Origin: Pseudaminobacter salicylatoxidans
GTDB lineage: Bacteria > Pseudomonadota > Alphaproteobacteria > Rhizobiales > Rhizobiaceae
NCBI RefSeq assembly: GCF_003148475.1
Contig: NZ_QGGG01000001.1
Span: 1 to 64,000 of the forward strand
Length of the DNA: 64,000 bases
Direction: 5' to 3'
Shown: positions 44,346 to 62,818 of the stretch, one piece after another
Layout: the number at the start of each line of letters is the position of its first letter
How positions within the stretch are numbered: the first letter of the stretch is position 1
Notes under the pieces: model-generated
The model's input: only the letters and a program-made list of their open reading frames with translations
Told to the model about the DNA's origin: nothing
Databases searched by the model: none
Made by a program: the position numbers and the translations under genes

Positions 44346-44568
44346 GCGCGTTTTAAAGCGGCTTGAGAAACAGAAACGAAAGGTTATGTCGCCAAACCGA
44401 AATATCTCGCGGGAAAACGAATGTTGGAGATTGCCAGATTGCCGGAAAAGTAGTTAAGTTTTGGATTGCGGGACGGGGTCGGGAGGCGCCTCTTTTCACA
44501 TGACTGTCACTGAGTATCGGTAACCGCATCGCAGGCGCCGGGAAGGCGCCAGTTCAACGGAGAGAGAA

Positions 44569-45675: not shown

Positions 45676-45735
45676 GCTATGAGACGGCCGGGCGGCCTTG
45701 GAGCCGCCTGGCCAACCATTCGGAATTCCTTCTTT

Positions 45736-46650: not shown

Positions 46651-47438
46651 AGCGCAGCCGCATCTGGTCCTGGGTCACTTTCGCGCTCGGTGCCGCATAT
46701 TTCTTCATTCCGCTGATTGCGACGGTCGAGTTCTCACTGCGCATGCGCCGGGGTGAGTATTCGCTCGACGCCTATCGCGTGGTGCTGGCCGATCCGCGCT
46801 TTCAGCAGACGTTTCTTTATTCGACCGTGGTCGCCGTCTTCACCATCCTCATCGGCGTGCTGCTGGTGGTGCCGACAGCCTACTGGATACGCCTGCGCAT
46901 GCCACGCATCCGGCCGGTGGTGGAGTTCATCACGCTGCTGCCGCTCATCATCCCGGCGATCGTCATCGTCTTCGGCTATATCCGCATGTACGGCTCGTCG
47001 TCGCCGCTGCCGTTCCTGGCGACCAATCGCGGGGCGGACGCGCTTCTGATGATCGGCTATGCCACGCTGGCGCTGCCTTATATGTACCGCGCCGTCGATA
47101 CGGGGCTGCGCACCATCGACGTGCGCACGCTGACGGAGGCCGCGCAAATCCATGGCGCGGGCTGGACGACCATCATTGCCCGCATCATCCTTCCCAATGT
47201 GCTGATTGCCGTGCTGTCGGGCGCTTTCCTCACCTTCGCCATCGTCATCGGCGAATTCACCATGGCGAGCCTGCTCAACCGCCCGGCCTTCGGGCCGTAT
47301 CTGCAGAACATCGGCGCCAACCGCGCCTATGAGCCGGCGGCGCTGGCGGTCATCGCTTTCGCGATCACCTGGGGCTGCATGTCGGTGATCCAGGTGCTAT
47401 CGCGCTTCGCGCCGAAATCGGCCAACAACACGAACTGA
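46647..47438 (+). CDS. ABC transporter permease (PotC/PhnV-like)
   Basis: A 263-residue inner-membrane permease with six segments. The EAA loop reads LTEAAQIHGAGWTTIIARIILPNVL, preceded by YMYRAVDTGLRTIDVRT. ATG 46647 overlaps the upstream stop (ATGA). It pairs with the preceding permease to form the heterodimeric channel and lies 14 bases before the ATPase gene. Confidence 0.93.
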   Translation: MKRSRIWSWVTFALGAAYFFIPLIATVEFSLRMRRGEYSLDAYRVVLADPRFQQTFLYSTVVAVFTILIGVLLVVPTAYWIRLRMPRIRPVVEFITLLPLIIPAIVIVFGYIRMYGSSSPLPFLATNRGADALLMIGYATLALPYMYRAVDTGLRTIDVRTLTEAAQIHGAGWTTIIARIILPNVLIAVLSGAFLTFAIVIGEFTMASLLNRPAFGPYLQNIGANRAYEPAALAVIAFAITWGCMSVIQVLSRFAPKSANNTN

Positions 47439-47452
47439 ACCGGAAGAACCCG

Positions 47453-48520
47453 ATGTCCGAAACCTTTCTCAGTATCCAGGGTGTCCGCAAGGCGTTCGGT
47501 GCCACCACCGTGGTCAAGGATTTCATACTCGATGTGGCGCGCGGCGAGTTCGTCTCCTTCCTCGGCCCCTCGGGTTGCGGCAAGACGACGATGCTGCGCA
47601 TGGTCGCCGGCTTCGAGGAACCCTCGGCCGGCAGCATCATGATCGGCGGCAGGGACGTCACCAACCTGAAGCCCAACCAGCGCAATATCGGCATGGTGTT
47701 TCAGGCCTATGCGCTGTTCCCGAACCTGACGGTGGCGCAGAACATCGCCTTCGGCCTCAAGGTCGCGGGCGTTTCCAGGGCAGAAAGCGATGAGCGCGTG
47801 CGCGAGATGCTCGCCATCATCAAGCTGGAAGGCTTCGAGGGACGCTATCCCTACCAGCTCTCCGGCGGCCAGCAGCAACGCGTGGCGCTTGCGCGCGCGC
47901 TGGCACCGCGGCCGAAACTGCTTTTGCTCGACGAGCCGCTGTCGGCGCTCGACGCCAAGGTGCGCGTGTCGCTGCGTGAGGAAATCCGGCTCATCCAGAA
48001 GAAACTCGACATCACCACCATTTTCGTCACGCATGATCAGGAAGAGGCGCTGTCCATGTCGGACCGCATTGTGGTGATGTATGACGGCCGCGCCGAGCAG
48101 GTTGGCACGCCGTTTGATATCTACAACCGCCCGGCGACCAGGTTCGTGGCCAATTTCGTCGGCACGCTCAACGTGCTCGACGGCACCGTGAAAGACCCGG
48201 CCAGGGCCGTCGTTCATGTCGATGGGCGCGAGATCACGCTCAGGAACGGCGCGCTCAATGGCACCAGGGCGGGCGATGCCCTGTCGCTGGCGCTGCGGCC
48301 GGAGGCGATCGTGCTGGGCAGGCAGGAGGGGCGCGACAGCAGCCTTGTCGGCGAAATCGCCGATGTCAGCTTCCTCGGCTCCGTCATTCGCGTGAAGGTT
48401 GGGGTCGGCAAGAGCGCCGTGTCGCTCGACACGTTCAACAATCCAGCGAGCCCGCCGCCGGTCATCGGCGAAAAGACCGAGATCAGCTTCTCCTCGGGCG
48501 ATCTGCTGGTGCTGCACTGA
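47453..48520 (+). CDS. ABC transporter ATP-binding protein (PotA-like)
   Basis: A 355-residue ATPase with Walker A GPSGCGKT (38-45), Q-loop MVFQAYALFPNL, signature LSGGQQQRVALARAL, Walker B LLLLDEPLSALD, switch VTHDQEEALSMSDR and a C-terminal TOBE domain (about 275-355, LALRPEAIVLG). It is the last gene of the importer with 44569-47438. No terminator with a T run is obvious downstream; the next gene is on the other strand. Confidence 0.95.
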   Translation: MSETFLSIQGVRKAFGATTVVKDFILDVARGEFVSFLGPSGCGKTTMLRMVAGFEEPSAGSIMIGGRDVTNLKPNQRNIGMVFQAYALFPNLTVAQNIAFGLKVAGVSRAESDERVREMLAIIKLEGFEGRYPYQLSGGQQQRVALARALAPRPKLLLLDEPLSALDAKVRVSLREEIRLIQKKLDITTIFVTHDQEEALSMSDRIVVMYDGRAEQVGTPFDIYNRPATRFVANFVGTLNVLDGTVKDPARAVVHVDGREITLRNGALNGTRAGDALSLALRPEAIVLGRQEGRDSSLVGEIADVSFLGSVIRVKVGVGKSAVSLDTFNNPASPPPVIGEKTEISFSSGDLLVLH

Positions 48521-49010: not shown

Positions 49011-49580
49011 TCAGCGCCCGAGCGTGTAGAACTCGTCATTCGGGCGCATGGAGGTGACATTGGCGAGGCGGTTCGACATGCCGAAGAAGGCCGCGATCGC
49101 GGAGATGTCCCAGATGTCGTCTTCCGAAAAGCCGTGGCCTTTCAGCATGTCCATGTCCTCGTCGTCCACTTCGTAGGCCCGTGCGGACACCTTCATGGCA
49201 AAATCCAGCATCGCTTTCTGGCGCGGCGTGATATCGGCCTTGCGGTAGTTGATGGCGACCTGATCGGCAATCAGAGGGTCCTTGGCGCGGATGCGCAGGA
49301 TCGCGCCATGCGCCACCACGCAGTACTGGCACTGGTTGGCATTGCTCGTAGCCACCACGATCATTTCGCGCTCGGCCTTGGTCAGATTGCCCGGCTTGTC
49401 CATCAGCGCGTCGTGGTAGGCGAAGAAGGCACGGAACTCGTCCGGACGATGCGCCAGAACGAGGAAGACGTTGGGTATGAAGCCCGATTTTTCCTGCACG
49501 GCCAGAATGCGCTCGGCGATGTCCTTGGGCAGGTCCTCGATGCGCGGCACAGGAAAGCGGCTGATGGGATGAGTGGTCAT
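49011..49580 (-). CDS. Carboxymuconolactone decarboxylase / AhpD-like peroxidase-related protein
   Basis: A 189-residue alpha-helical protein with the AhpD-type redox motif C-x2-C-x3-H (NQCQYCVVAHG; Cys84, Cys87, His91). The family segment EFRAFFAYHDALMDKPGNLTKAEREMI and the C-terminal GFSEDDIWDISAIAAFFGMSNRLAN are also present. Members of the peroxidase-related (uncharacterised) subgroup may remove peroxides or support another enzyme. It is the last gene of the nine-gene operon, 22 bases after the molybdoenzyme, so it may protect that pathway. ATG 49580 follows GGAGGAAC. Confidence 0.92.
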   Translation of the reverse strand: MTTHPISRFPVPRIEDLPKDIAERILAVQEKSGFIPNVFLVLAHRPDEFRAFFAYHDALMDKPGNLTKAEREMIVVATSNANQCQYCVVAHGAILRIRAKDPLIADQVAINYRKADITPRQKAMLDFAMKVSARAYEVDDEDMDMLKGHGFSEDDIWDISAIAAFFGMSNRLANVTSMRPNDEFYTLGR

Positions 49581-49602
49581 ATTGTTCCTCCGGGTATCTG
49601 GA

Positions 49603-51915
49603 TCATGCATCCGCGAGTGCGGCGATGGTTCGTTGATAGTGGTCGATTGCGTGTGGCGCCAAGCCTTCATATGGCTCGATGCGCACCAGGCATGTATGCG
49701 CCGAGCATCCCTGGCCGAATTGCGAGGTCGGAACGTCAAGCGTCAGCACGTTGGGGTTTCCGGCAATCTCCAGGCCGCTGTTTCCGGTGGGCGTGAACCA
49801 GGCGCCTGTCGGCAGGATGGCAACGCCCTGGCGCACGGCGTCATCTACACTTGCTGCGGCAAGACAAGCACCGCGGGCATTCCAAAGGCGCACCGTGGCA
49901 CCGTCCGCGATGCCAAGTCTGGCTGCATCGACAGGATTGATGCGCACCTGTTCACGACCATTGCGCTTGTTCGCACGACTGGATGGCCCTGCTTCCAATT
50001 GGCTGTGCAAACGGCCGGATGGCTGATGGGAGACAAGATGAAATTCGTTGCCATCCGCTGCCTTGCCCAGCCATTCCGCCGGCTCGAGCCAGGCCGGATG
50101 CTCGGGGCAATCCGCGTACTGCAATTGCGCGAGCGTGTCGCTGCCCAGGACGATGAGGCCGCTTTCGGTGTTGAGCGGATGTGCTTGGGGATCTTGCCGG
50201 AACCCGGCAAGAAAAGTGTGGTTTTCGCGGACCGGAACCCTGGCATGACCCTGCTGCCAGAAGGCGTCGAATTCCGGCATTTCAAAGCCGAACCGTTCGC
50301 CGGCATCCCTGCGGGTCGCCTCGTAGAGATAGCGGATCCATGCCATTTCGTCACGGCCTTCGTTGAAAGCGTCGCCGATCCCGAGGTGCCTGGCGATACC
50401 GTTGAAGATTTCAAAGTCCGATCGTGCCTCGCCGAGAGGCTCTATCGCCTTGTGCATGGCCAGGATGTAGTCCGAGCGCTTGTTGCCAGCGAGGTCATTG
50501 CGCTCGATGGATGTCGAGGCGGGCAGCACGATGTCGGCGCGCTGGGCGGTCGGCGTCCACATCGGGTCCTGGACGATGATGGTTTCCGGCCGGGTCCATG
50601 CTTCGGCGAGCCGGTTGATGTCCTGATGATGATGGTAGGGATTGCCTCCTGCCCAATAGACCAGCCTGATATCAGGATATGCGCGGGTTTGTCCCTGATA
50701 GGTGAAAGTGTCGCCGGGATTGAGCAGCATATCGGTGACGCGCGCGACAGGGATGAAGCTGTCAAGCGACTTAAGCCCTTGCGATATCGCCGGTGATTTG
50801 CCGAGGCCGAAGGGAGCCCCTACACCGCCTAGCGAACCATAGCCAAAGCCCACGCCCCCGCCTGGAAGTCCGATCTGGCCTGCGACCGCCGCGAGCCCCA
50901 GTGCCGCCCAGAAGGGCTGTTCGCCATGATGCGCGCGCTGAAGGCTCCAACTTACCGTCAGCATGCTGCGCGTATCGACGAGCGCGGGAGCAAGTGCCCT
51001 GATATGTTCGGCATCGAGCCCCGTGATCTCCGCCGCCCATTGCGCATCCTTGCGAATGCCGTCGGCGGAACCATCCAGATAGGCGATGAAACGATCCGAT
51101 CCGCTGCAACAGCGTGCAAGGAAATCGCGGTCGTGACGGCCCGCCTTCACGAGCTCTCCGGCAAGACCCAGCATCAATGCGGTGTCGGTGTTGGGACGGA
51201 TGGGCCACCACTCGGCATTCATCCATTCGGGGAGATCATCGCGCAGTGGCGAGACGAGCAGCACCCTGATGCCCCGTTCAGCGATGCGTTCCAGATGTTT
51301 TTCCAGAGTATGCGAGCCGATGCCGCCGGCCTCGCTTTGCGCAGTGCGTGGAGAAAGCGCGCCAAAAACCACCAGCGTCTCGGTATTCTCGGCGATCGAG
51401 TCGAGCGTGTTGGCCTGACCGCTGCAAGCTTCGTCGCTGCCCAGGGTATGTCGCAGGATAACCGGACCGGCAGCTATGCTGTAAGTGTCGACATGGCCGG
51501 TAAAGCCGCCAACAAGGTTAAGCGTGCGCTTGAGAAGCGACGATGCGTGATGCAGTCGGCCGCAACTCGTCCAGCCATAGGAGCCGGCGAAGATTGAGGC
51601 ATTGCCGTAGTTTTGGCGAACGCGGTCAATCTCCCCCGCCACCAACTCCGTCGCCGTCTCCCAGCTTACGGGTATGAACTTGTCCTTGCCACGCAGATGC
51701 CCGCTGCCGCCGTCGCGATTTTCCAGCCAGCCGGCCCGAACCATCGGGCGCAGAACGCGGCGGCTGGGGTTCGACCACTCCCGGACCGAATGGATAATCG
51801 GTGACGGATTGGGGTCGTGCTCAAAAGGCTCGACACCGACAATCTCGCCGTTCTCGACGAGGAGTGTGTAAGCGCCCCAGTGACTGCAGTGCGGTACGCG
51901 CCTGATATTGCCCAT
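49603..51915 (-). CDS. Cytoplasmic molybdopterin oxidoreductase (BisC/TorA/DMSO reductase family)
   Basis: A 770-residue type III Mo-bisMGD enzyme. It lacks a Tat signal and an N-terminal Fe-S Cys motif, so it resembles cytoplasmic BisC. The Mo ligand is probably Ser117 in GSYGWTSCGRLHHA. Other cofactor motifs are YWAGGNPYHHHQDINRL, IVQDPMWTPTAQRADIVLPAST and SHQPSGRLHSQLE. The family reduces S- or N-oxides (biotin or methionine sulfoxide, TMAO). Here it lies between a ThDP-enzyme gene and an AhpD-like gene in a catabolic operon, so it may reduce an oxidised group in the imported substrate. Confidence 0.93.
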   Translation of the reverse strand: MGNIRRVPHCSHWGAYTLLVENGEIVGVEPFEHDPNPSPIIHSVREWSNPSRRVLRPMVRAGWLENRDGGSGHLRGKDKFIPVSWETATELVAGEIDRVRQNYGNASIFAGSYGWTSCGRLHHASSLLKRTLNLVGGFTGHVDTYSIAAGPVILRHTLGSDEACSGQANTLDSIAENTETLVVFGALSPRTAQSEAGGIGSHTLEKHLERIAERGIRVLLVSPLRDDLPEWMNAEWWPIRPNTDTALMLGLAGELVKAGRHDRDFLARCCSGSDRFIAYLDGSADGIRKDAQWAAEITGLDAEHIRALAPALVDTRSMLTVSWSLQRAHHGEQPFWAALGLAAVAGQIGLPGGGVGFGYGSLGGVGAPFGLGKSPAISQGLKSLDSFIPVARVTDMLLNPGDTFTYQGQTRAYPDIRLVYWAGGNPYHHHQDINRLAEAWTRPETIIVQDPMWTPTAQRADIVLPASTSIERNDLAGNKRSDYILAMHKAIEPLGEARSDFEIFNGIARHLGIGDAFNEGRDEMAWIRYLYEATRRDAGERFGFEMPEFDAFWQQGHARVPVRENHTFLAGFRQDPQAHPLNTESGLIVLGSDTLAQLQYADCPEHPAWLEPAEWLGKAADGNEFHLVSHQPSGRLHSQLEAGPSSRANKRNGREQVRINPVDAARLGIADGATVRLWNARGACLAAASVDDAVRQGVAILPTGAWFTPTGNSGLEIAGNPNVLTLDVPTSQFGQGCSAHTCLVRIEPYEGLAPHAIDHYQRTIAALADA

Positions 51916-51934
51916 CCGAGCTTTCCCAACCTCG

Positions 51935-53485
51935 TCAGATTATGGCTTCGATAAGAAACGGCCCGTTGCGGCCGCATGCCGAGCTCAGTATGTCTGCGAA
52001 ACGTTCTGCGGTCTCTGCCCGCGCGGCCTCAACACCCATGGCGTTGGCCATGCCAACCCAATCAAGCGCCGGATTGTCGAGATCGAGCATCTGGCGTGCA
52101 TTGGCTCCCGGCACTCCGGCACCGACATTCTTCAATTCGCCATGCAGGATGGCATAGCGACGATTGGCAAACACGATGGTCAGCGTGTTGGTCCGCTCGC
52201 GCGCCTGGGTCCATAGGCTTTGCACAGTATACATGCCGCTGCCGTCTGCCTGGAGGGAGATCACCTTGCGATCGGGGCAGGCGATGGCGGCACCGGTGGC
52301 CATTGGGAGGCCGATGCCGATGGCGCCGCCGGTCAGCTGCAGAAAGTCATGGGGCTCGGCGCCGTGCGTTTTGTGGAAAAAGTCGCGTCCGGAACTGACC
52401 GACTCGTCGCAGACGATTGCATTAGCGGGCATGTAGTGGGCAAGCGCAATGGCGATGGCCTCTGGCGTGAGCTTTCCTGCCGCTAGATCGGGCCGATGAC
52501 GGCTTGCGATCTCGATCGGCATGCCGTTATCGACGCCGAGGACATCCGCCAGCATGTCGACGGCGAGGGGCAGATCGTCATCTTCGGCGATCATGTCGAT
52601 CACCTTGCACGCGTCGGGCAGCATGCTGCTGGGTTTGCCGGGATAGGCGAAGAAGCCCACCGGTGCCTTGGCGCCAATCAGCACCACCTGCGCGGTTTCG
52701 GCAAAGCATGCCACTGCCTTGTCGATCACATAAGGTACGCGGTCGATCGGAACGCGGCCGGCGCCCCGTTGCAAGCGACCGTTCGATTGTTGCGCCATGA
52801 GCCTGGCGCCTGTCTTGCGGGCGATGCGGCCAAGCTTTTCAAGCTGCGTCTGGCGCAATGCGAGGCCGGTCACCAATATGGTCGTGTTTTGCCCGTTGCG
52901 CAGGGCATTGGCGGCCGCTTCGATGCGTTTCATGTCCGGAGCGGAGGCTGCAGACAGCGCTGCCTTGCGGGGCGTTTTTGCAGTGGTCTCGCTCCACGCG
53001 ACATCGGCTGGAAGGATCAGGGTCGAGATCCTGCCCTGCGGCGCGCGCGCTTCTCTGATGGCTGCCTCAGTGATCTGGCCGATTTCATCCGACGCAGCGG
53101 CGCGGCCGATCCAGTGTGACATCGGTCGCGCGAGCGACTCGATGTCGGAGGTCAGTGGCGCGTCATAGGGAAGGTGATGGGTCGCATGTTCGCCCACCAC
53201 ATTGATGACCGGCGTGCGGGCACGCTTGGCATTGTGCAGGTTGGCAAGTCCGTTCGCGAGCCCCGGTCCCAGATGCAGCAGGGTAGCAGCCGGCTTGTCC
53301 GCCATGCGGGCATAGCCGTCTGCCGCACCTGTCACCACACCTTCGAAAAGACCGAGAATGCAACGCATCCCGGGCTGGCGGTCGAGGGCGGCAACGAAAT
53401 GCATCTCCGATGTGCCAGGGTTGGCGAAGCATACGTCAATGTCATTTGCGAGGAGGGTTTCGCAAAGCAGGTCGGCACCGTTCAT
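51935..53485 (-). CDS. Thiamine-diphosphate enzyme (acetolactate synthase large-subunit-like)
   Basis: A 516-residue ThDP-dependent enzyme of the ALS/benzoylformate decarboxylase superfamily. It has the N-terminal FANPGTSEMHFVAALD, activating Glu48 in LGLFEGVVTGAADGYAR, GPGLANGLANLHNA and the C-terminal ThDP-Mg motif near 411, which reads QADGSGMYTVQSL...ANRRYA with Ala for the usual Gly of GDGS. It is shorter than IlvB (about 560-590), and no small-subunit gene is nearby, so it is probably catabolic: decarboxylation or carboligation of a 2-oxoacid, or cleavage of a 2-hydroxyacyl-CoA. Its start overlaps the kinase stop by 4 bases. Confidence 0.88.
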   Translation of the reverse strand: MNGADLLCETLLANDIDVCFANPGTSEMHFVAALDRQPGMRCILGLFEGVVTGAADGYARMADKPAATLLHLGPGLANGLANLHNAKRARTPVINVVGEHATHHLPYDAPLTSDIESLARPMSHWIGRAAASDEIGQITEAAIREARAPQGRISTLILPADVAWSETTAKTPRKAALSAASAPDMKRIEAAANALRNGQNTTILVTGLALRQTQLEKLGRIARKTGARLMAQQSNGRLQRGAGRVPIDRVPYVIDKAVACFAETAQVVLIGAKAPVGFFAYPGKPSSMLPDACKVIDMIAEDDDLPLAVDMLADVLGVDNGMPIEIASRHRPDLAAGKLTPEAIAIALAHYMPANAIVCDESVSSGRDFFHKTHGAEPHDFLQLTGGAIGIGLPMATGAAIACPDRKVISLQADGSGMYTVQSLWTQARERTNTLTIVFANRRYAILHGELKNVGAGVPGANARQMLDLDNPALDWVGMANAMGVEAARAETAERFADILSSACGRNGPFLIEAII

Positions 53486-54993
53486 GTCAGTCCAATCTCA
53501 GTCTTTGTCGCCTCGATCTCCGCCAATGCCTCCCAGTGCGGAAGAACCGCATCGATGAGGTGGACAAACAAGGCATATTTCCGCTCGGCGTAGTCTGCAA
53601 CCGGTCCCGCTTCCGGGTCGATCCGTTCGTCGTAGGCCCCCACCCAGGTGTTTGCCAAAGCTTCGCGCGACAGGCCGAAAAGGTGGAAAGCCGCAATCGC
53701 CCCGGCTCCCTTGAGCCCCGCCTGACCGTCGGTTGCGCGCAACACCGGGCTGCGGGTGGCCGTGGCAAGGAACTGGGCGAAGGCGCGATCGGCTGCCAGC
53801 CCGCCTCCAAGGGCAATGGATGCATGCCCACCCTGCATCATTTCATGACTGCGGCGCGCCACGAAAGCCAGTGCTTCGCGACCGGCCCAATCGATTTCGG
53901 CCGGTGTGGTCGCCGCGGTCAACCCGAAAAGGGCACCACGCGCATGCGGTGTGGTGTAGGGTGCGCGCTCACCGCTCGGTTCGAGGAAAGGCTGCAAGAC
54001 AAGACCCGAATAAGCGGGAGAAACGCCGTTTGACTGCGAGGTGCGTCCGGTGAGATGACGCAGATGCTCGAATAGCGATGCCCCGTTGAAGCTGGGGTGG
54101 AAGCTGACATATCCGTCGCCGAGTGCGAAAGGCTGGACCATTGCGCCCGCTGGACGCTCAAGCATTTGCCCGGGGTCGGCCATATGACGTCCGTGAATGG
54201 CGCTGGTGCCGAAGATAGAGCAACGCTCGATGCCTGGCACGAGGCCAAGACCAAGGCCGATCAAGGTGGATTGCACGTCACCGGGACCGAGCAAAACCGG
54301 CAGGCCGGCTGGCAAGCCCGTTGCCTTTGCCGCTTCCGTCGAAAGACCGGATCGGGTGGAGCCTATGGGAAGCATTTCGGGCAGCAGAGCAATACCCCTG
54401 GAAAGGCCCAGCGTGCTTTCCACGACGGGAGACGGCGAATGGCTGCGCCAATCTCCCCATGTCGGCAGCAGGGCGCTCGGCTCTGCCTTGAGTTCGCCGG
54501 TGAAGCAGAAGAAGAGCCATTCCTTCAGCCTCAGCGCAAAGCGTATCCGTTCAAACCTTTCCGGCTCGTTCCGGGCCAGCCACAGAAGCTGCATCGATTG
54601 GCTTGCCGCAGTAGGGCGAGAGAAGGTGACATCTTCTATGGGCTTGAAGGTTCCGCGCCGCGTATGTGCTGCGACCAAGTCCCGCGCGCGGCCGTCAAGC
54701 CAGGTGATGGCAAGTCCGGCTGGCCGCCTGTCTGCATCGAGCGGCCAGGTCCCATCTCCCTGTGCTGTGACGATCAGGCCGGCAGGTTTTCCTTCAACCT
54801 TCGCCGCGCATTCGGCCAGGACCCGGGCGGCATCATCCCTGCTGGCGTCCATGTCCTGCTCGACAAAACTTCCCGACCGCCGCAACGCGCTGTTCGGGCG
54901 CTGGGCAACGGCCAGAAAGCGGCCCTCCAGGTCGAAGGCCGCAGCCTTGACCGTAGTCGTGCCGGAATCGAGACAGAAAATCAGATCGGACAT
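53482..54993 (-). CDS. FGGY family carbohydrate kinase
   Basis: A 503-residue ATP-dependent sugar or polyol kinase. It has the N-terminal phosphate-1 motif FCLDSGTTTVKAAAFDLEG, a LIVTAQGDGTWPLD segment resembling the erythritol-kinase-like subgroup, the LPVLLGPGDVQSTLIGLGL motif and C-terminal IALGGGLAADRAFAQFLA. I start it at ATG 54993; the longer frame upstream runs antisense-like through the aldolase gene. It phosphorylates a ketose, polyol or related compound, probably feeding the class II aldolase encoded 10 bases upstream. The exact substrate is not visible. Confidence 0.92.
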   Translation of the reverse strand: MSDLIFCLDSGTTTVKAAAFDLEGRFLAVAQRPNSALRRSGSFVEQDMDASRDDAARVLAECAAKVEGKPAGLIVTAQGDGTWPLDADRRPAGLAITWLDGRARDLVAAHTRRGTFKPIEDVTFSRPTAASQSMQLLWLARNEPERFERIRFALRLKEWLFFCFTGELKAEPSALLPTWGDWRSHSPSPVVESTLGLSRGIALLPEMLPIGSTRSGLSTEAAKATGLPAGLPVLLGPGDVQSTLIGLGLGLVPGIERCSIFGTSAIHGRHMADPGQMLERPAGAMVQPFALGDGYVSFHPSFNGASLFEHLRHLTGRTSQSNGVSPAYSGLVLQPFLEPSGERAPYTTPHARGALFGLTAATTPAEIDWAGREALAFVARRSHEMMQGGHASIALGGGLAADRAFAQFLATATRSPVLRATDGQAGLKGAGAIAAFHLFGLSREALANTWVGAYDERIDPEAGPVADYAERKYALFVHLIDAVLPHWEALAEIEATKTEIGLT

Positions 54994-55003
54994 GGACGCT
55001 ATG

Positions 55004-55681
55004 TCACGATGCCTTGTGCAAGCCGGATATCGTCTTGGGGCTTTGCTGCCCGTAGGTTTTGAACTTTTCCAGCACCTCCGCCATTTCGGCATCCGAAAGG
55101 ACCGGCGGCTCGCCAAGCGGCAGGCACAGCATATATTGATGCGCCAGTTCTTCGACGGTGACGGCCAGCGCCAGCGCGCGGGGGATGGAAACATGCGCCG
55201 CGATCACCCCGTGATGGGCCATGAGGCAGGCACGCCGGCCTTCCAACGCGGTGACCACATTATCGGCAAGCTCCTGCGATCCGAAGACGGCATAGGGCGC
55301 GCAGCGGATCGTCGGGCCGCCGGCCGAGGCGATTGCGTAGTGGATGGCAGGAATTTCCTTGCCGAGGATCGCGACCGTGGTGGCAAAGGTGGAATGCGTG
55401 TGAACCACCGCGTTGAGATCGGGGCGGGCCTTCAGAATATCCCGGTGGAAGCGCCACTCGCTCGACGGTAGCACATCCCCGTCGAAAGTTGCATCCCAGC
55501 GCATGGCAACGACATGCTCGGGTGTCAGCTTGTCATAGGGTATGCCGGTGGGGGAAATCAGAAAGCCGTCGCCGTAACGGACACTTATATTACCCGCCGT
55601 TCCCTTGTTGATGCCCAGCCTGTTCATGCTGCGGCAGGCTTCGACCAGTTCGGTGCGCAGCACAAGTTCTTCATCATTCAT
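55004..55681 (-). CDS. Class II aldolase/adducin family protein (FucA-like)
   Basis: A 225-residue zinc aldolase or epimerase. It has NKGTAGNISVRYGDGFLISPTGIPYD (phosphate-binding loop) and Glu75, His94, His96 and His157, which align with FucA Glu73, His92, His94 and His155. The motifs are SSEWRFH, VVHTHSTFA and MAHHGVIA. Such enzymes cleave ketose-1-phosphates to DHAP and an aldehyde. With the neighbouring FGGY kinase it forms a phosphorylate-then-cleave pair. It starts 9 bases after the dehydrogenase stop, within the same operon. Confidence 0.93.
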   Translation of the reverse strand: MNDEELVLRTELVEACRSMNRLGINKGTAGNISVRYGDGFLISPTGIPYDKLTPEHVVAMRWDATFDGDVLPSSEWRFHRDILKARPDLNAVVHTHSTFATTVAILGKEIPAIHYAIASAGGPTIRCAPYAVFGSQELADNVVTALEGRRACLMAHHGVIAAHVSIPRALALAVTVEELAHQYMLCLPLGEPPVLSDAEMAEVLEKFKTYGQQSPKTISGLHKAS

Positions 55682-55690
55682 GATGTTGGC

Positions 55691-56752
55691 TCACTTTGTG
55701 GGATAGAGGGGAGCACGGCCTTCCAGGATTCGCCCGATATCTTCGGCGATCATGTCGGCTGCCTTGATGATGGAATAGCGCGAAGCGCCCGCAATATGCG
55801 GCGAGAGGGTCACGTTCGCCAGTTTGAGCAACGGCCAGTCCGCCGGCGGAGGCTCGGGATCGAACGTATCGAGTGCGGCGCCCCTTATGTGGCCGGAAAC
55901 CAGCGCGTCATAGAGCGCTGCGTAGTCGAGCACCTGCCCGCGCGTGGTGTTTACGATATAGGCCCCCGGCTTCATCGCCTCGATCTGGGCCCGGCCGATC
56001 ATGCCCTTCGTCTGCGGCGTAACGCGCGGGTGCAGCGTCACCACATCCGAATGGGCAAGCAGATCATCGAATGCAACTTTTTCGATTCCCGCCGCGCGAT
56101 CCTCGTCCGCCAGTTCCTTGAACGGGTCCGCCACGAGGATCTTGCAGCCGAACGGCTGGAGCAGCCGCGCCACGCGTGTACCGATGTCGCCGTAGCCGAC
56201 GATGCCGACAGTCAACTCACCCAGTTCGGGCCCGGTGTGATCGAAGTGATAAAATTCGCGGCGAAACTCGCCGCTCGCAACCGAAAGATGCCCACGGATA
56301 AGATTGCGCGTCTCCGCCAGCAGGGACGCGACGGTGAATTCCGCAACGGCCGAGGCATTACGGCCGGGCGTGTTGATCACGGTGATGCCGCGCGCCCGCG
56401 CAGCCGGCATCTCTATGTTCACCGGCCCGCCACGCGACACCGCTACGATCTTCAGCTTCGGCGCATGGTCGAAGCTTTTCGATGTGAGCGGCGCGAGATG
56501 GGTAATGAGGACATCAAGATCGGAAATGAAGTCGAAATAGTCCTCCGGCCTGCCGACGAATTCGGCGATCGGAAGTTCAGGATCATGCTTGGTGGACTGC
56601 ACCTTGAGTGGCCAGTCCAGTGTCATGTGGCGATAGGAAACCGATTGTCCGGCAAGACGTTTTGAAACCGCCCGCTCGAAGAAGTCGGGCTGCATGAAGC
56701 CGTCGCCGATGATGCCAACCGTCAGCGTCGTGGTCGTGCTCGCGTCGTCCAT
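55691..56752 (-). CDS. D-isomer-specific 2-hydroxyacid dehydrogenase
   Basis: A 353-residue NAD(P)-dependent oxidoreductase. ATG 56752 follows GGGAGG; a longer start at 56776 lacks one. It has a Rossmann motif GIVGYGDIGTRVA (about 184), the catalytic Arg in NTTRGQVLDY, Glu in DTFDPEPPP and His in LSPHIAGAS. It interconverts 2-hydroxy and 2-oxo acids. The N-terminal ~100 residues are unusual for SerA-type enzymes. In the operon it could supply or consume the 2-oxoacid used by the ThDP enzyme. Confidence 0.93.
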   Translation of the reverse strand: MDDASTTTTLTVGIIGDGFMQPDFFERAVSKRLAGQSVSYRHMTLDWPLKVQSTKHDPELPIAEFVGRPEDYFDFISDLDVLITHLAPLTSKSFDHAPKLKIVAVSRGGPVNIEMPAARARGITVINTPGRNASAVAEFTVASLLAETRNLIRGHLSVASGEFRREFYHFDHTGPELGELTVGIVGYGDIGTRVARLLQPFGCKILVADPFKELADEDRAAGIEKVAFDDLLAHSDVVTLHPRVTPQTKGMIGRAQIEAMKPGAYIVNTTRGQVLDYAALYDALVSGHIRGAALDTFDPEPPPADWPLLKLANVTLSPHIAGASRYSIIKAADMIAEDIGRILEGRAPLYPTK

Positions 56753-56772
56753 AATGTCCTCCCTGGCGATGG

Positions 56773-57987
56773 TCACGCCCGGCGTGTTTTCAGGGCGGGT
56801 TCTTCCAGTCCCGGCAGAACCGCGCCATAGGCTTCGGGCTCCGCCGCAATCTCTTCCAGAATTTCCCGTGTGTGTTCAGCAAATTGCGGCGGTTTGCGCG
56901 TATAACTCGCCGGTGTGCGCGACAGCTTGATGGGGCTTCCGGTGCCGCGATAGTTATCGATCTCAACGATCATCTCGCGGTGATGCGTATGTTCATCCGC
57001 GATAACCTGATCGATCGTGCGCACCGCCCCGCAAGGGACGCCCGCCTTGATCAGCCCATCGGCGAGCGTTTCGCACTCGTGATTGGCAAGCGCCTGTTCC
57101 AGTTCGACCTTGAGGGCGTCGCGATTGATGCTGCGTTCGGCATTGTCGGCAAAAAGCGGATTGCGAGGCAGTTCCGGCCGGCCGACCATGCGGCAAAGTA
57201 TTTCGAACTGACGGTTGTTGCCCACAGCAAGGAAGATCGGGTCCGTCTTTGTCGCAAACGTATCGTAGGGACAGATATTGGGGTGGGCGTTGCCCGATGG
57301 CTTCGCGACTTTGCCCGAGAGGTAGTAGTTCGGCAGGTGCGGATGAAGCAGGGAAACGCCGCAGTCGTAGAGGGCGGTTTCGATGAATTGCCCTTTGCCG
57401 CTCGACGCCCTCTCGTTGAGCGCCATCAGAATGCCGATCGCCGCGTTCAGGCCTGTCACCATGTCAACTACCGGTAGCCCTACGCGCAGCGGATCGCCGC
57501 CCAGTTCCCCATTGACGCTCATGATGCCGCAGGAAGCCTGAATGGCGGCATCGTAACCCGGCAATCCGCCCATTGGGCCATCGCTGCCGAAACCGGAGAT
57601 GCGACAATGGATGAGACGGGGAAAACGACGCTCCAGCTCGTCCCGCGTCAGGCCCCACCGCTCCAGCGTGCCGGTCTTGAAGTTTTCGATGAACACATCG
57701 GCATTTGCGAGCAGGCGCAGCAGCAATTCCTGCCCCGCTGGCTGGGACATGTCGAGTGCCATGCCGCGCTTGTTGCGGTTGAGGCCGAGGAAGTAGCTCG
57801 CCGTTCCGTCGAGAAAGGGCGGCCCCCAGCCACGAGTTTCGTCTCCCGCGGGCGGTTCGATCTTGATGACATCGGCGCCGTGGTCGGCCAGCACCTGACC
57901 GGCATAGGGACCGCCGAGCACGCGGCTGGCATCGATCACCCGGATATCGGCGAGAGAGCCCCGCGTCGTCATATCGTTTTGTTCCAT
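56773..57987 (-). CDS. CaiB/BaiF (class III) CoA-transferase
   Basis: A 404-residue family III CoA-transferase. It has the N-terminal DIRVIDASRVLGGPYAGQVLADHGADVIKIE, catalytic Asp146 in GLPGYDAAIQA (equivalent to formyl-CoA transferase Asp169), GKGQFIETALYDC and the C-terminal GVPCGAVRTIDQV. It moves CoA between carboxylic acids. It is encoded 20 bases upstream of the hydroxyacid dehydrogenase and downstream of a class I CoA-transferase pair, so two distinct CoA-transfer systems share one operon. Confidence 0.94.
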   Translation of the reverse strand: MEQNDMTTRGSLADIRVIDASRVLGGPYAGQVLADHGADVIKIEPPAGDETRGWGPPFLDGTASYFLGLNRNKRGMALDMSQPAGQELLLRLLANADVFIENFKTGTLERWGLTRDELERRFPRLIHCRISGFGSDGPMGGLPGYDAAIQASCGIMSVNGELGGDPLRVGLPVVDMVTGLNAAIGILMALNERASSGKGQFIETALYDCGVSLLHPHLPNYYLSGKVAKPSGNAHPNICPYDTFATKTDPIFLAVGNNRQFEILCRMVGRPELPRNPLFADNAERSINRDALKVELEQALANHECETLADGLIKAGVPCGAVRTIDQVIADEHTHHREMIVEIDNYRGTGSPIKLSRTPASYTRKPPQFAEHTREILEEIAAEPEAYGAVLPGLEEPALKTRRA

Positions 57988-57998
57988 ATCAGAAATTC

Positions 57999-58766
57999 CT
58001 AGGCGATCTCGGTGAGGCTCTGGCGCATCTGCGCCGCAAATTCCGGATAGGTCTCCGCGAGCTCATCGAGCACGCGGCCACGCAACAGGTCGAGTTCGTC
58101 CACATCGGGCGACGGCGTGACGCCCGGTTCCGCATCGTGCTCGAAGGTGAAGCCGGTCGCTTCGGCGATTTCGTCGAAACTGTGCCCGGGATGGATGCTG
58201 TCGAGACGAAAGCGGCCCTTCTGCCGATCAAAACGGAACAGGCCTTTGCCGGTGACGAGGGCGTACGGACCGCCAGTCCTGTAGACGCCTTCGTCACTGG
58301 TGCCGGGCGCGCTGATGAAGTCGACCTTCTCGACGAAGACGCGCGGTGTGTGTTCTTCTCGGAAAAGGATCACACGTGGCACCACGAAGTAGAGATAGGC
58401 GGAGCCGAACGAGCCAGGCCAACGGACGCTGGAACGCGGATAGTCACCGACGCCCACGAGGTTGATGTTGCCTTGCCCGTCGATCTGGCCGCCGCCCAGG
58501 AAGAAAGCGTCTATGCGGCCTTGACCTGCGCAATCGAAAAGCTCGGTCGAGCCGTTGGTGAAAAAGTTGTGCTCGACCGAACCGAGTATGGAGATTTTCA
58601 CTGGTGCCGCACCTGCCCGCTCCTTCAGCGCGCGCAGAAGCATGGCGCCAGCCGCCGGGATCGGCGAGGATGCGCCCACAGCCACATGGCGAACGCCATC
58701 CAGCAGGCGCGCGATTGTGCAGATCAGAATTTCCCGCGGCAGGGGCGGCTGGATCATGGACATCAT
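57999..58766 (-). CDS. Class I CoA-transferase, beta subunit (glutaconate/IpdB-like)
   Basis: A 255-residue family I subunit. It has the N-terminal CTIARLLDGVRHVAVGASSPIPAAGAMLL, KISILGSVEHNFFTNGSTELFD, LGGGQIDGQGNINLVGVGDY and the C-terminal LDSIHPGHSFDEIAEATGFTF, all typical of IpdB/GctB-like subunits. Two adjacent ATGs (58766, 58763) follow GGAGG; the first overlaps the alpha-subunit stop by 4 bases. It forms a heteromer with the product of 58763-59563. The acyl-CoA substrate is unknown. Confidence 0.92.
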   Translation of the reverse strand: MMSMIQPPLPREILICTIARLLDGVRHVAVGASSPIPAAGAMLLRALKERAGAAPVKISILGSVEHNFFTNGSTELFDCAGQGRIDAFFLGGGQIDGQGNINLVGVGDYPRSSVRWPGSFGSAYLYFVVPRVILFREEHTPRVFVEKVDFISAPGTSDEGVYRTGGPYALVTGKGLFRFDRQKGRFRLDSIHPGHSFDEIAEATGFTFEHDAEPGVTPSPDVDELDLLRGRVLDELAETYPEFAAQMRQSLTEIA

Positions 58767-59563
58767 GCGGCCTCCCCGAAACCGGCCATGTAGGCGGAAA
58801 ATCCCTGTGCGGTGCGAGCTTCCCGCGCATAGCGCATGAGTTCCTGCGTGTCGGCGGAATATTCTCCCCACAATCCGTATGGCCATGCGCCGCGTGTGAC
58901 CTGCGCCACCGCCGTCACGTAGAGAGAGGGCAGGGTGCCCGTTGCGGTTACTTCGTCGGAAAGAAGATTCTTGTCTACGATGCGCTCTGCCGTCACCAGG
59001 GTCACGGCAGAGGCATATGCCATGGCGGCAAGTTCGCGCCGGCGGCCGATCCAGACATTTCCGTGCCGATCGGCCATCGGGACGTGGAAGATCGCAACGT
59101 CCGGCCTGATTGCCGGGATGAGAACGATCGGATCGGACGCTTCCGCAAATGGATTGTCGACGGTCTTCCAGTCCTGGCGGTATCTCAACACGTCGCTGCC
59201 GATCAGTCCGCGCATGGGCATGAAAGGTACGCCCTTTTGCGCCGCCAGCAGGCCCGTATGAATAGCCGGGCATGTCGCGTCGCGCACGACGATCGAGCCT
59301 TCCTTGACGGCGCGATTGAAGCAGGGAGCGCCGCCAGCCTCACCGAGCGAGATGGCGCTCGTCTCCACCGAGCGCACAACGCCCGCGCCGACGAGCATGT
59401 CTACCTGCAAGCCCCCCGTTGGCACGCATACGACATCAAGGTCCGAGATGCCCCGCTCGATCAGCGGGTGAACCATGGCCATGGAGACGCCGGCATAATC
59501 GACTGGCAACGCCAGTCGCATGCCCGATTCCACAAGCCGCGCCAGGGATTGCAAATCCTCCAT
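58763..59563 (-). CDS. Class I CoA-transferase, alpha subunit (glutaconate/IpdA-like)
   Basis: A 266-residue family I subunit and first gene of the nine-gene operon. ATG 59563 sits 5 bases after GGGAGGTGG. A GTG at 59572 overlaps that site and is unlikely. Motifs are VHPLIERGISDLDVVCVPTGG, VETSAISLGEAGGAPCFNRAV, GVPFMPMRGLIGSDVLRY, VLIPAIRPDVAIFHVPMAD and GNVWIGRRRELAAMAYAS. It lies downstream of promoter and operator-like sequences shared with the divergent importer. Confidence 0.92.
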   Translation of the reverse strand: MEDLQSLARLVESGMRLALPVDYAGVSMAMVHPLIERGISDLDVVCVPTGGLQVDMLVGAGVVRSVETSAISLGEAGGAPCFNRAVKEGSIVVRDATCPAIHTGLLAAQKGVPFMPMRGLIGSDVLRYRQDWKTVDNPFAEASDPIVLIPAIRPDVAIFHVPMADRHGNVWIGRRRELAAMAYASAVTLVTAERIVDKNLLSDEVTATGTLPSLYVTAVAQVTRGAWPYGLWGEYSADTQELMRYAREARTAQGFSAYMAGFGEAA

Positions 59564-59833: not shown

Positions 59834-59848
59834 GATTTGGGAGGAAGA

Positions 59849-61003
59849 ATGGCTGATATTCTGGCGATGCGTTCGGCACGGTGCGAAGGCACTGCTGACG
59901 AAGCGAAAGTGGGGGTGGCGTCGGCTGCCGCGCCCGGCATTGGCAGCAGCATCGCGATACGCAATGTCGTCAAGGCCTATGGCGGCTATCGCGCGGCCGA
60001 CGATATCAGTCTCGACATCAATCCCGGTGAATTCATCACCTTGCTGGGGCCGAGCGGCAGCGGCAAGACGACCTTGCTCAATCTCGTTGCCGGATTCCAG
60101 AAACCCAACGGTGGAGAAATTCTCGTCGACGGCAGGCCGATCCACAATGTGGCGCCGCATCGTCGCGGCTTTGGCATGGTGTTTCAGAGCTACGCGCTGT
60201 TTCCCAACATGACGGTCACCCAGAACGTCGCCTTCCCGCTGCGCATGGCGGGTGTCGATCGTGAAACGACAGAGCGGCGCGTGGCCGAAACGCTGGAAAT
60301 CATGCGTTTGTCCGAGCACGCCCGGAAGCTGCCTTCGCAGATGAGCGGTGGACAACAGCAGCGTGTCGCCATTGCGCGAGCCATCGTTCGCCGGCCGAAG
60401 GTGGTATTGATGGACGAGCCGTTGAGCGCTCTCGACCGCCGCCTGCGCGAGCAGATCCAGATCGAGATACGCGATTTGCATCAGACGCTGGGCAGCACCA
60501 TCCTTTTCGTCACGCACGACCAGGGTGAAGCGCTCACCATGAGCGACCGGATCGCGGTCCTGGACGCGGGCAAGATCGTTCAGGTGGCTGCACCCGTTGA
60601 AATTTACCGCCACCCGTCCACGCGTTTCGTCGCGGCCTTCGTTGGAGAATCCAACCTCATCGACGTCGAAATCTTACAGAAGCGCGGCACGACGATGACG
60701 TTGAGGAACCAGGCTGGCTATGTTTTCGATGCCGAGACGCGGAGCCCTGTCGAAGTAGGGCGTGCGACGGTCCTCGTTCGTCCCGAGCGCATCGCCATCA
60801 GCACGGCGGTCACGCCGAACGCGCTGCCCGTTACGGTTCGCTCGGCGATCTTCCTGGGCGAAATCCTGCGTATCGAAGCCGATACCGATCAGGGCGAGCG
60901 GCTTCTGGTCCGCTGCACGGACAGCGCGGAGCGCCCGCTGCCTTCACCCGGCGACCGGCTTTATGCCACCTGGCGGGCGGAAGACTGCTGGGTGCTGCCA
61001 TGA
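59849..61003 (+). CDS. ABC transporter ATP-binding protein (PotA-like)
   Basis: A 384-residue ATPase. ATG 59849 follows GGGAGGAAG. It has Walker A GPSGSGKTT (around 70), Q-loop MVFQSYALFPNM, signature MSGGQQQRVAIARAI, Walker B VVLMDEPLSALD, switch VTHDQGEALTMSDR and a C-terminal TOBE domain with VLVRPERIAIS. An N-terminal ~35-residue extension precedes the ABC domain. It is the first gene of a three-gene importer facing the nine-gene catabolic operon and overlaps the permease start by 4 bases. Confidence 0.94.
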   Translation: MADILAMRSARCEGTADEAKVGVASAAAPGIGSSIAIRNVVKAYGGYRAADDISLDINPGEFITLLGPSGSGKTTLLNLVAGFQKPNGGEILVDGRPIHNVAPHRRGFGMVFQSYALFPNMTVTQNVAFPLRMAGVDRETTERRVAETLEIMRLSEHARKLPSQMSGGQQQRVAIARAIVRRPKVVLMDEPLSALDRRLREQIQIEIRDLHQTLGSTILFVTHDQGEALTMSDRIAVLDAGKIVQVAAPVEIYRHPSTRFVAAFVGESNLIDVEILQKRGTTMTLRNQAGYVFDAETRSPVEVGRATVLVRPERIAISTAVTPNALPVTVRSAIFLGEILRIEADTDQGERLLVRCTDSAERPLPSPGDRLYATWRAEDCWVLP

Positions 61004-62790
61004 GCGTCACGAATATCCCGTTGGGAGGTGCGGACCGCCGGTCGTTCACACTGCCGGAACGGCTCAAGGATCCGGCATGGCTGCTTCTGCCTGCGGCTGC
61101 CTTTCTTGCCTTCATCTATCTGTTGCCGGTTATCGACCTGGTCCGCATCAGCCTGAGCGGACCGAGCTGGAGCGTCCATTTCGAGCGCGTCTTTGCAGTT
61201 CCGCTCTATTGGAATTCGCTCGTGCGAACCATGGAGATTTCCTTCATGGTGGCGCTGCTTTGCCTCTTCTTCGGCTATCCCACGGCGCTTCTCATCCACA
61301 AATCCAGCGGCTGGCGACAGATTGTCGTCGCGACGGCCGTGATCCTCCCCTATTTCATCGCCATACTGATCCGCACCTACTCCTGGATGGTGCTTCTGGG
61401 GCGTAACGGCCCGATCAACAAGCTCGCGGTCGCGCTCGGCATTTTCGATCAGCCCGCGCAACTCCTGTTCAACCGGAGTGCGGTCCTGCTTGGCATGACG
61501 GCTGTACTGTTGCCGCTGATGGTACTCAGCATCTATTCCAGCATCGCCCGTCAGGATCCAAGCTTCGTCAGGGCGGGGCAGGCAAGTGGAGCGGGGCCGC
61601 TGGCAGTGTTCTGGCGCGTGCTCCTGCCGCTCACAATGCCGGGCATGGGGGCAGGTTTCCTGCTGGTGTTTGTCACCGCGCTCGGCTTCTTCATCACGCC
61701 GACCTTGCTGGGCGGACCCGGCGACCAGATGTTTGCCATGCACATTACCCAGCAGGCCGATTTCGCGACCAGCGAAGGCTTTTTGCAGGCGCTTGCCGTC
61801 GTGCTTCTGGTCATCACTCTGATCGTCGTGGCGATTGCGGGTCGTTTCCTCGGCTTTGAATTCATCTGGGGTGGTGGCAAGCTTGTTGAGGCGAGTTCTC
61901 ACGCTTCGTCTCCCAGGAGCAGTCGGCGAGGCGGCACGCTTTCCGCAAAGCTTGCCGACTCGGTCGGTTGGCCGTTGCTCAGGCTGCTCAGCCGCATGCC
62001 GCTCGGCACCGGTACCTGGACCGTGCGCGTCCTGGGCGGGTTCGTTCTCCTGGCGCTGATGGCACCGATCGTGGTGGTCATGATCCTGTCCTTCAGCAAG
62101 GCCAGCTTCCTGACCTTCCCCCCGCCCGGCTTTTCCCTGCGCTGGTACGAGAAATTCTTCTCGGACAGTGAATGGATGACCGCTTTCACCAACTCATTCA
62201 CCATCGCCTTGTTGTCGGCTGTCATCGCGGTGACGCTCGGTGGCCTGGCAGCCCTCGGTATCGTGCGCAGTTCGATCAGGGGCAAGGCTGCGATCATGCT
62301 GCTCCTTGTCAGCCCGGTCATCGTTCCCCCTGTCGTGCTGGGCCTGTCGCTGTACAGTCTTTTCCTGCGTACCGATCTCGCCGGAACGATCAGCGGGCTT
62401 GCTGCGGCGCATGCAATCGGTGGCTTGCCGATCGTGGTGGTCATCATGGCGGCAAGCCTGCAAGGGGTGGATCGCCGCCTCGAACAGGCCGCGGCAGTGC
62501 ATGGCGCGTCTCCGCTCACCGTCTTCCGCACGGTAACGCTTCCGGCCGTGGCTCCGGGCATGGCCGCGGCCGCGTTCTTTGCCTTCCTGCATTCATTCGA
62601 TGAACTGGTGCTGTCGCTGTTCCTGTCGAGCGCGCAACTCAGGACGCTGCCGCTCCGGCTATGGGCTGATGTCAACTACCAGCTCAACCCGGTACTGGCG
62701 GTGGTTTCCACCCTCGAGGTGCTGCTTGTCGTCGGTGGCATCGCCCTTGCCCGGCCCGTATTGGCTGGCCGGACCAAACCCGCTGTGTAA
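61000..62790 (+). CDS. Fused ABC transporter permease (PotB-PotC-like, two domains)
   Basis: A 596-residue inner-membrane protein that joins two permease domains normally encoded by separate genes. Domain 1 (about 20-290) has the EAA-like loop FVRAGQASGAGPLAVFWRVLLPLTMPGM. A Ser/Arg-rich linker (about 295-325) follows. Domain 2 (about 335-590) has LEQAAAVHGASPLTVFRTVTLPAVAPGM. About twelve hydrophobic segments are predicted. It works with the ATPase that overlaps its start and the binding protein encoded 28 bases downstream. The fusion fixes a 1:1 channel. Confidence 0.93.
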   Translation: MSVTNIPLGGADRRSFTLPERLKDPAWLLLPAAAFLAFIYLLPVIDLVRISLSGPSWSVHFERVFAVPLYWNSLVRTMEISFMVALLCLFFGYPTALLIHKSSGWRQIVVATAVILPYFIAILIRTYSWMVLLGRNGPINKLAVALGIFDQPAQLLFNRSAVLLGMTAVLLPLMVLSIYSSIARQDPSFVRAGQASGAGPLAVFWRVLLPLTMPGMGAGFLLVFVTALGFFITPTLLGGPGDQMFAMHITQQADFATSEGFLQALAVVLLVITLIVVAIAGRFLGFEFIWGGGKLVEASSHASSPRSSRRGGTLSAKLADSVGWPLLRLLSRMPLGTGTWTVRVLGGFVLLALMAPIVVVMILSFSKASFLTFPPPGFSLRWYEKFFSDSEWMTAFTNSFTIALLSAVIAVTLGGLAALGIVRSSIRGKAAIMLLLVSPVIVPPVVLGLSLYSLFLRTDLAGTISGLAAAHAIGGLPIVVVIMAASLQGVDRRLEQAAAVHGASPLTVFRTVTLPAVAPGMAAAAFFAFLHSFDELVLSLFLSSAQLRTLPLRLWADVNYQLNPVLAVVSTLEVLLVVGGIALARPVLAGRTKPAV

Positions 62791-62818
62791 TACCTGATTT
62801 TTGTGGAGGAAATTCAAA

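Follow-up and report, generated by a model that had tools for sequence, protein, structure and literature searches.

The window analysed here, a stretch of 64,000 nucleotides of Pseudaminobacter salicylatoxidans (contig NZ_QGGG01000001.1, positions 1 to 64,000), carries a nine-gene unit on the minus strand (49011–59563) that is real and conserved. The unit extends past these nine genes to a divergent ATP-binding cassette (ABC) importer on the plus strand (59837–63907) and an IclR gene. Our best explanation, which we put forward tentatively, is a catabolic operon that is linked to IclR, is served by a dedicated PotD-type importer and would break down the S-oxide of a carboxylated polyol organosulfur compound (thioether/S-oxide). 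An earlier note on this DNA had described nine tightly packed genes and read them as one catabolic operon. All nine open reading frames (ORFs) were confirmed as intact members of the families that it named, and the single-operon reading is supported; its interpretation as a whole is supported in part. Its statement that no pathway with this set had been described also held within the open-licence literature, where we found no paper describing the nine families together.

The operon begins with ctA (58763–59563) and ctB (57999–58766), which encode the alpha subunit of a protein with the coenzyme A (CoA)-transferase fold, similar to IpdA, AibA and GctA, and its beta subunit. These are followed by caiB (56773–57987), a family III CoA-transferase; hadh (55691–56776), a D-isomer-specific 2-hydroxyacid dehydrogenase (PF02826 at 186 bits, also PF00389); fucA (55004–55681), a class II aldolase of the L-fuculose-1-phosphate/ribulose-1-phosphate type (PF00596); and fggy (53482–54993), an FGGY sugar kinase (PF00370/PF02782). 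The last three genes are thdp (51935–53485), encoding a thiamine diphosphate (ThDP) 2-oxoacid decarboxylase-like enzyme of the benzoylformate decarboxylase branch (PF02776/PF02775); bisC (49603–51915), encoding a cytoplasmic member of the molybdenum-bis(molybdopterin guanine dinucleotide) S/N-oxide reductase family (PF00384/PF01568/PF18364); and ahpD (49011–49580), encoding an AhpD/CMD-fold peroxidase-related protein with a CxxC motif (PF02627; TIGR01926 at 218.7 bits; NQCQYCV.AH invariant in 26 rows). Starts were picked by spacing: ctA 59563 (ATG), ctB 58766, caiB 57987, hadh 56776 (GTG) or 56752 (ATG), fucA 55681, fggy 54993, thdp 53485, bisC 51915 and ahpD 49580. With the chosen starts, every junction is a 4-base overlap or a gap of at most 22 bases. 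The overlaps are ctA/ctB, fggy/thdp and caiB/hadh (the last becoming a 20-base gap with the ATG start), and the gaps are 11 bases for ctB–caiB, 9 for hadh–fucA, 10 for fucA–fggy, 19 for thdp–bisC and 22 for bisC–ahpD. On the plus strand lie the ABC transporter ATPase (59837–61003), a fused ABC permease (61000–62790) and a PotD-type solute-binding protein (SBP; 62801–63907), and the IclR gene occupies contig bases 64001–64771, one base beyond the window end.

We compared the window with 31 loci picked for holding genes of the unit, assigning orthologues by identity thresholds; in unannotated loci, ORFs were called by dipeptide score and those outside the family searches were named by eye. All nine genes occur in identical order in 15 of these 32 loci, more than chance would explain. 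L057 and L088 are one and the same contig, so that the 15 loci stand for 14 distinct organisms; since each locus was fetched for a homologue of some gene in the region, the fraction is not a frequency. The conserved synteny that the earlier note had proposed as a check is thus observed. Individual genes were found in 30 loci (ctA and ctB), 29 (bisC and iclR), 26 (ahpD), 25 (fucA), 23 (caiB), 22 (fggy), 21 (hadh) and 20 (thdp), with IclR lying beyond the sequence given for the window and with L056 and L087 truncated within bisC and thdp where the contig or the fetched stretch stops. The permease and SBP have orthologues in 27 loci and the ATPase in 25, and rhodanese and acyl-CoA synthetase genes accompany the unit in 14 and 11, respectively. 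The annotated block IclR–SBP–permease–ATPase/ctA–ctB–caiB–hadh–fucA–fggy–thdp–bisC–ahpD was identified in five annotated regions, from Paracoccus denitrificans PD1222, P. methylovorus, Cereibacter sphaeroides KD131, Pseudosulfitobacter pseudonitzschiae and Sagittula sp. P11; a rhodanese gene follows in four of the five and an acyl-CoA synthetase gene in three. Within the order, the importer binding protein (E ≤ 1e-100) was found in 11 of 397 sampled genomes and hadh of at least 78% identity in three of 397, the window's genome being included in both counts. A tblastn search of plasmids with ctA gave 14 records at 60–80% identity and then values below 37% (best 40 of 235 rows), and among the best 80 of 581 matches in a fucA scan of genome contigs, 13 loci of at least 74% identity carry the whole or partial unit.

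Judged by gene content, the operon is divided into two predicted modules: a core of ctA, ctB, bisC and ahpD, often with caiB, and a front end of dehydrogenase, kinase and FucA-type aldolase. The four core genes are all present in 26 of the 32 loci, even with the front end lost or replaced. The FGGY kinase occurs in 22 loci, with hadh in 21 and the ThDP enzyme in 20. Eight other loci (L058, L089, L170 and L163–L167) all carry a short-chain dehydrogenase/reductase (SDR) and a PfkB kinase, and hadh, fggy and thdp are all missing from their fetched stretches; in five of the eight (L163–L167) the aldolase is 52–53% identical and falls in another clade of the FucA tree. The FGGY and PfkB/SDR kits were never found together in the fetched stretches of the 32 loci. 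The exchange of the kits as wholes is a sign that dehydrogenase, kinase and aldolase act in one series of steps, and it speaks for an oxidation, a phosphorylation and a retro-aldol cleavage that yields dihydroxyacetone phosphate (DHAP). The phosphorylation and retro-aldol cleavage that the earlier note had deduced from the kinase and aldolase thus gain support from the replacement of the kit as a unit. This module logic is firmer than the assignment of sulfur to the substrate.

Partial loci separate the modules further. L060 holds ctA–ctB–bisC–ahpD without the front end, plus an AcuI-like reductase; L082 holds ctA–ctB–caiB, then bisC–ahpD about 6 kb off, no front end, a TRAP (tripartite ATP-independent periplasmic) importer and a flavin monooxygenase-like gene. 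L085 carries a TRAP importer with hadh–fucA–fggy–bisC, the contig ending within bisC. In Hoeflea olei (L092), of the nine genes, only hadh–fucA–fggy reach orthologue level; its BisC is 43% identical, and aldehyde dehydrogenases, a GlcD-like oxidase and a TRAP importer are also encoded. Directly 3' of its fggy lies a gene for an E1/transketolase-like protein, which perhaps replaces the ThDP step. AcuI-like genes occur in seven of the 32 loci, and the one tested scored 435.5 bits against an equivalog cut-off of 440.

Among the front-end enzymes, hadh has the motifs NTTRG, EPPP and SPHIAG, invariant in 21 rows, and keeps the R, E and H residues that are catalytic in the D-2-hydroxyacid dehydrogenase family. 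FucA shows the motifs SSEWRFH, HTHS and HHG, as in E. coli FucA, invariant in 25 rows; it passes the PRK08087 subfamily cut-off by 1.6 bits (265.6 versus 264) and lies below the equivalog for true L-fuculose-1-phosphate aldolase (TIGR01086, 248 versus 400 bits). In a tree of 104 rows, the 25 cluster aldolases form one clade (100/98, from a bootstrap that had not settled), whose neighbour the tree does not resolve because the midpoint root lands on a long row. For the FGGY kinase, no close characterised relative was found (XylB 116 bits versus a cut-off of 380; best PDB match 77 bits). CaiB meets the PF02515 gathering score (416 versus 23.3 bits), and its nearest NCBIfam model, succinate-glutarate CoA-transferase NF052585, reached 334 bits against a cut-off of 750; among the matches listed, the kinase, CaiB and hadh passed no NCBIfam cut-off. 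The pairing of an FGGY kinase with a FucA aldolase bearing FucA motifs resembles the L-fucose/D-ribulose pathway (FucK, FucA), but the window kinase is far under the FucK and XylB cut-offs and the operon contains no sugar isomerase.

A second, likewise unassigned type of cluster with an FGGY kinase and a hadh-like dehydrogenase was observed in genomes of the same taxonomic order, in 12 loci fetched for hadh (L171–L182). In 11 of the 12, a hadh relative of 46–53% adjoins an FGGY kinase of 27–34%, an adjacency that links hadh to the catabolism of polyols or ketoses even though it has the catalytic residues of a 2-hydroxyacid dehydrogenase; a FucA of 46–50% is present in four. These loci differ from the window in importer and regulator, have no ctA, ctB or caiB match and, except for a 30% molybdoenzyme in L182, no BisC match. 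Six of them, inspected by eye, carry a SorC-like regulator and an ABC importer with two ATPases, and five of the six a GlpD-like gene. Marinovum algicola pMaD5 (L188, 3014–17662) seems to carry a counterpart of the set in the window, with BisC (50%), an FGGY kinase (29%), a class II aldolase (31%), a dehydrogenase, two transketolase subunits and an aldehyde dehydrogenase; it differs in having a zinc dehydrogenase in place of hadh, a Tau-like ABC importer and no CoA genes.

Both subunits of CtAB meet the gathering score of the CoA-transferase fold family PF01144 (41 bits for ctA and 44 for ctB versus 23), in agreement with the fold behind the class I CoA-transferase label of the earlier note; the function implied by that label is probably wrong. 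The nearest solved relatives of CtA are IpdA (6coj/6co6), AibA and GctA, that is, subunits of IpdAB, of AibAB, which we take to be 3-methylglutaconyl-CoA decarboxylase, and of glutaconate CoA-transferase. The motif D-x-T-C-P-A of CtA is invariant in 44 rows (two identical), including relatives of 45–60%, and its cysteine occupies the position of the IpdA glutamate (Glu in 6co6, Ala in 6coj). The catalytic glutamate of GctB is Glu54 of the beta subunit, according to the accessible text of PMC5380842. Between ctB residues 13 and 74, no invariant or nearly invariant glutamate was found in 17 aligned sequences, and E12 and E75 fall outside the stretch expected for GctB Glu54; the alignment to GctB/AibB is gappy near Glu54, which leaves the exact counterpart position unfixed, and is unreliable around the AibAB beta-subunit cysteine changed in 5n00–5n03. 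Because the class I catalytic glutamate is missing and an invariant cysteine stands at the IpdA glutamate position, CtAB is probably a lyase or hydrolase rather than a CoA-transferase. IpdAB likewise lacks the beta-subunit catalytic glutamate, but it is a steroid ring hydrolase, the similarity is just 41–84 bits, its alpha-subunit glutamate is a cysteine in CtA, and the window's unit contains no steroid or isovalerate genes. Relatives of ctA (46–66%, the window's own aside) were also observed in 70 of 385 genomes of the class, and make up a broad family that shares the Cys motif; in 15 such loci that were fetched (L061–L075), ctB always adjoins ctA, a CaiB of 54–58% is present in eight, and the neighbourhoods otherwise vary.

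From the gene content, gene order, replacements and conserved residues, we infer each reaction, the S-oxide and the order of the steps as follows. The PotD-type ABC importer would take up the substrate, BisC would reduce its S-oxide and AhpD would keep the thiol or redox side. The polyol or hydroxyacid part would be oxidised by hadh (by the SDR elsewhere), and the FGGY (or PfkB) kinase would convert the product into a ketose-1-phosphate, which the FucA-type aldolase would cleave by a retro-aldol reaction to DHAP and an aldehyde. The ThDP enzyme would then process the aldehyde or 2-oxo acid fragment to an acid, a task that aldehyde dehydrogenase and the GlcD-like oxidase may share where present. 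CaiB, or an acyl-CoA synthetase, would activate the acid to a CoA ester, and CtAB would cleave this ester as an IpdAB/AibAB-like lyase or hydrolase, with no CoA transfer. The AcuI-type reductase in several loci suggests an acrylyl-CoA intermediate in their pathway.

An S-oxide substrate is favoured on gene context, which is circumstantial. BisC passes TIGR00509 by 2.3 bits (1019.8 versus 1017.55) and is the sole gene above that cut-off in the genome. Sulfur-related genes near the unit include the rhodanese in 14 loci, an L092 gene best matching methionine gamma-lyase, below the cut-offs of the models, and, in L095, a cupin that weakly resembles cysteine dioxygenase (Pfam 23.1 bits versus a cut-off of 23); in Diaphorobacter, an annotated cysteine dioxygenase and a 3-sulfinopropanoyl-CoA desulfinase lie 5–6 kb from ctA–ctB–caiB. 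We also picked by eye seven annotated clusters of 48–50% BisC relatives from the best 45 of 539 records, and four of them contain sulfur genes: Ponticoccus (mtnA, nucleoside phosphorylase, transketolase subunits and RuBisCO-like protein), Salipiger (MetC and a sulfurtransferase), Azospirillum (a transsulfuration pyridoxal phosphate enzyme) and M. chubuense (phosphosulfolactate synthase). The R. rhizogenes cluster is ambiguous, with NtaA/DmoA monooxygenases; no sulfur gene was seen by eye in the Bosea cluster, and the Marinovum cluster has a kinase–dehydrogenase–aldolase–transketolase set with no clear sulfur genes. On Ponticoccus alexandrii plasmid p-SCP4 (L190, 3608–13311), the BisC-family gene is enclosed in what looks like a methylthioadenosine (MTA) operon, with mtnA on one side of it and the genes for two transketolase-like subunits and a RuBisCO-like protein on the other.

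Several observations weigh against this explanation. Dehydrogenases of the hadh type normally take a 2-hydroxyacid, not a polyol. The genes caiB, thdp, hadh and ahpD are each absent somewhere (present in 23, 20, 21 and 26 of the 32 loci, a number of which are truncated by the limits of the contig or fetched stretch), and in window positions 40001–64000 no AcuI, GlcD or aldehyde dehydrogenase gene exceeds the orthologue thresholds, a different aldehyde dehydrogenase being encoded at 41649–43037. We further surveyed 40 of 86 listed BisC places in genomes of the class, in stretches of at most 20 kb with the two best candidates per genome scored. In none of these 40 neighbourhoods did the MTA, transketolase, FGGY or FucA probes give a match (E ≤ 1e-25), a sulfur-type probe matched in two only (a flavin monooxygenase in L193 and a 34% gamma-lyase in L208), and nothing recurs in most of them. 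The sulfur reading is circumstantial because these neighbourhoods are mostly without sulfur probes, and because most of them share nothing, BisC may be a repair enzyme. BisC and AhpD would then be a redox-repair add-on acting on free methionine or a cofactor sulfoxide, and the pathway substrate a sulfur-free hydroxylated acid or polyol. Three ahpD relatives (73–80%) that stand without the other eight genes in their fetched 20 kb are in line with this. We nevertheless regard it as rather unlikely, given that ctA, ctB, bisC and ahpD are all found in 26 loci, including ones that have lost or exchanged the kinase, aldolase and dehydrogenase, and that bisC adjoins the ctA–ctB–caiB triple of a more distant branch in one of the 40 neighbourhoods (L217).

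The methylthio-pentose sulfoxide route raised in the earlier note proposes that BisC reduces a 5-methylsulfinyl pentitol or pentulose, that dehydrogenase and kinase yield 5-methylthioribulose-1-phosphate, and that the aldolase releases methylthioacetaldehyde along with DHAP, in the manner of the DHAP shunt. The chemistry of that shunt is already known, and 2-methylthioethanol converts non-enzymatically in air to 2-methylsulfinylethanol, according to the accessible text of PMC10986504; a kinase–isomerase–aldolase salvage of 5-deoxyribose is described in the accessible part of PMC6079011. Gene context provides hints in its favour: the Ponticoccus cluster that encodes the 48% BisC also has mtnA and genes for a purine-nucleoside phosphorylase, a RuBisCO-like protein and two transketolase-like subunits. 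FucA relatives of 62–63% have a gene annotated as methylthioinosine phosphorylase next to them in Polaromonas and one resembling it in Rhodoferax, and both loci encode a protein read by eye as MtnA. The operon shares with the DHAP shunt (MtnN/MtnP, MtnK, MtnA, Ald2) a kinase followed by a FucA-type aldolase giving DHAP and an aldehyde and, putatively, a sulfur-bearing substrate. It differs in having no nucleosidase or phosphorylase, MtnK or MtnA, and in carrying an FGGY kinase (PfkB elsewhere), a dehydrogenase, the CoA module, BisC and a PotD-type importer of the polyamine/opine rather than a nucleoside class. The idea is weakened because the genome is without the MtnA isomerase (TIGR00512, no match in the window's genome; the control was positive in nine of 14), and the FucA tree gives no clear sister placement of the Polaromonas and Rhodoferax relatives; we judge it improbable. 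Salvage of MTA or methylthioribose proper was not accepted, on the missing MtnA and the lack of MTA probe matches in the 40 BisC neighbourhoods. The same pathway logic with an N-oxide or N-hydroxy substrate would fit a family named for S- and N-oxides (TIGR00509 description) and an importer class that binds amines and amino-acid conjugates, and this too counts against an S-oxide. It is quite improbable, as no amine-handling enzyme appears among the accessory families in at least three of the 32 loci, as opposed to rhodanese in 14.

The SBP matches PDB 3rpw best (621.8 bits), then 4i1d, then binders of mannopine, agropine, γ-aminobutyric acid and polyamines; we found nothing relevant on the ligand of 3rpw in the open-licence literature. 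R. palustris RPA4648, a binding protein assigned to the spermine/putrescine COG that may differ from 3rpw, is stabilised by p-coumarate according to the accessible text of PMC3223731. Together with the SBP relatives that bind mannopine and agropine, this might indicate uptake of an aromatic propenoid or opine-like conjugate whose side chain the operon serves, which is very improbable given that no ring-cleavage or opine-cleavage enzyme occurs among the families of the unit. Finally, the suggestion of the earlier note that CaiB makes an acyl-CoA for cleavage by the ThDP enzyme, as in oxalyl-CoA decarboxylase or 2-hydroxyacyl-CoA lyase chemistry, has CaiB matches to oxalate/formyl-CoA transferase models (204–252 bits, far under cut-offs of 442–522) on its side and is rejected as hardly credible because of the kinship of the ThDP enzyme. 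This enzyme scores 751.6 bits with PRK07586 (cut-off 363), and the 47 PDB sequences that it finds at E ≤ 1e-30 all bear the name benzoylformate decarboxylase. Four relatives of 49–60% each adjoin importer genes, and two of the four have aminotransferase and aldehyde dehydrogenase genes nearby as well; L093 keeps thdp without caiB.

Elsewhere in the window, another catabolic-looking stretch lies on the plus strand at 36249–48520, with ORFs named by eye as amidohydrolase-like, a TRAP importer, glutamine-synthetase-like, an aldehyde dehydrogenase, an iron alcohol dehydrogenase and a PotD-type ABC importer.

Returning to the proposed operon for a carboxylated polyol S-oxide, the data call into question the automatic gene names CoA-transferase, acetolactate synthase and L-fuculose-phosphate aldolase. 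That nine enzymes are conserved together with importer and regulator, in soil rhizobia as well as in marine Rhodobacterales, suggests a compound that is common in the environment. It is conceivable, if still doubtful, that the unit represents a widespread, undescribed alphaproteobacterial pathway for sulfoxide-polyol-acids, in which CtAB with its alpha-subunit cysteine would be a new acyl-CoA lyase or hydrolase and the dehydrogenase–kinase–aldolase kits would be interchangeable. The swapped kits and the unusual CtAB offer concrete tests of step order and enzyme function.

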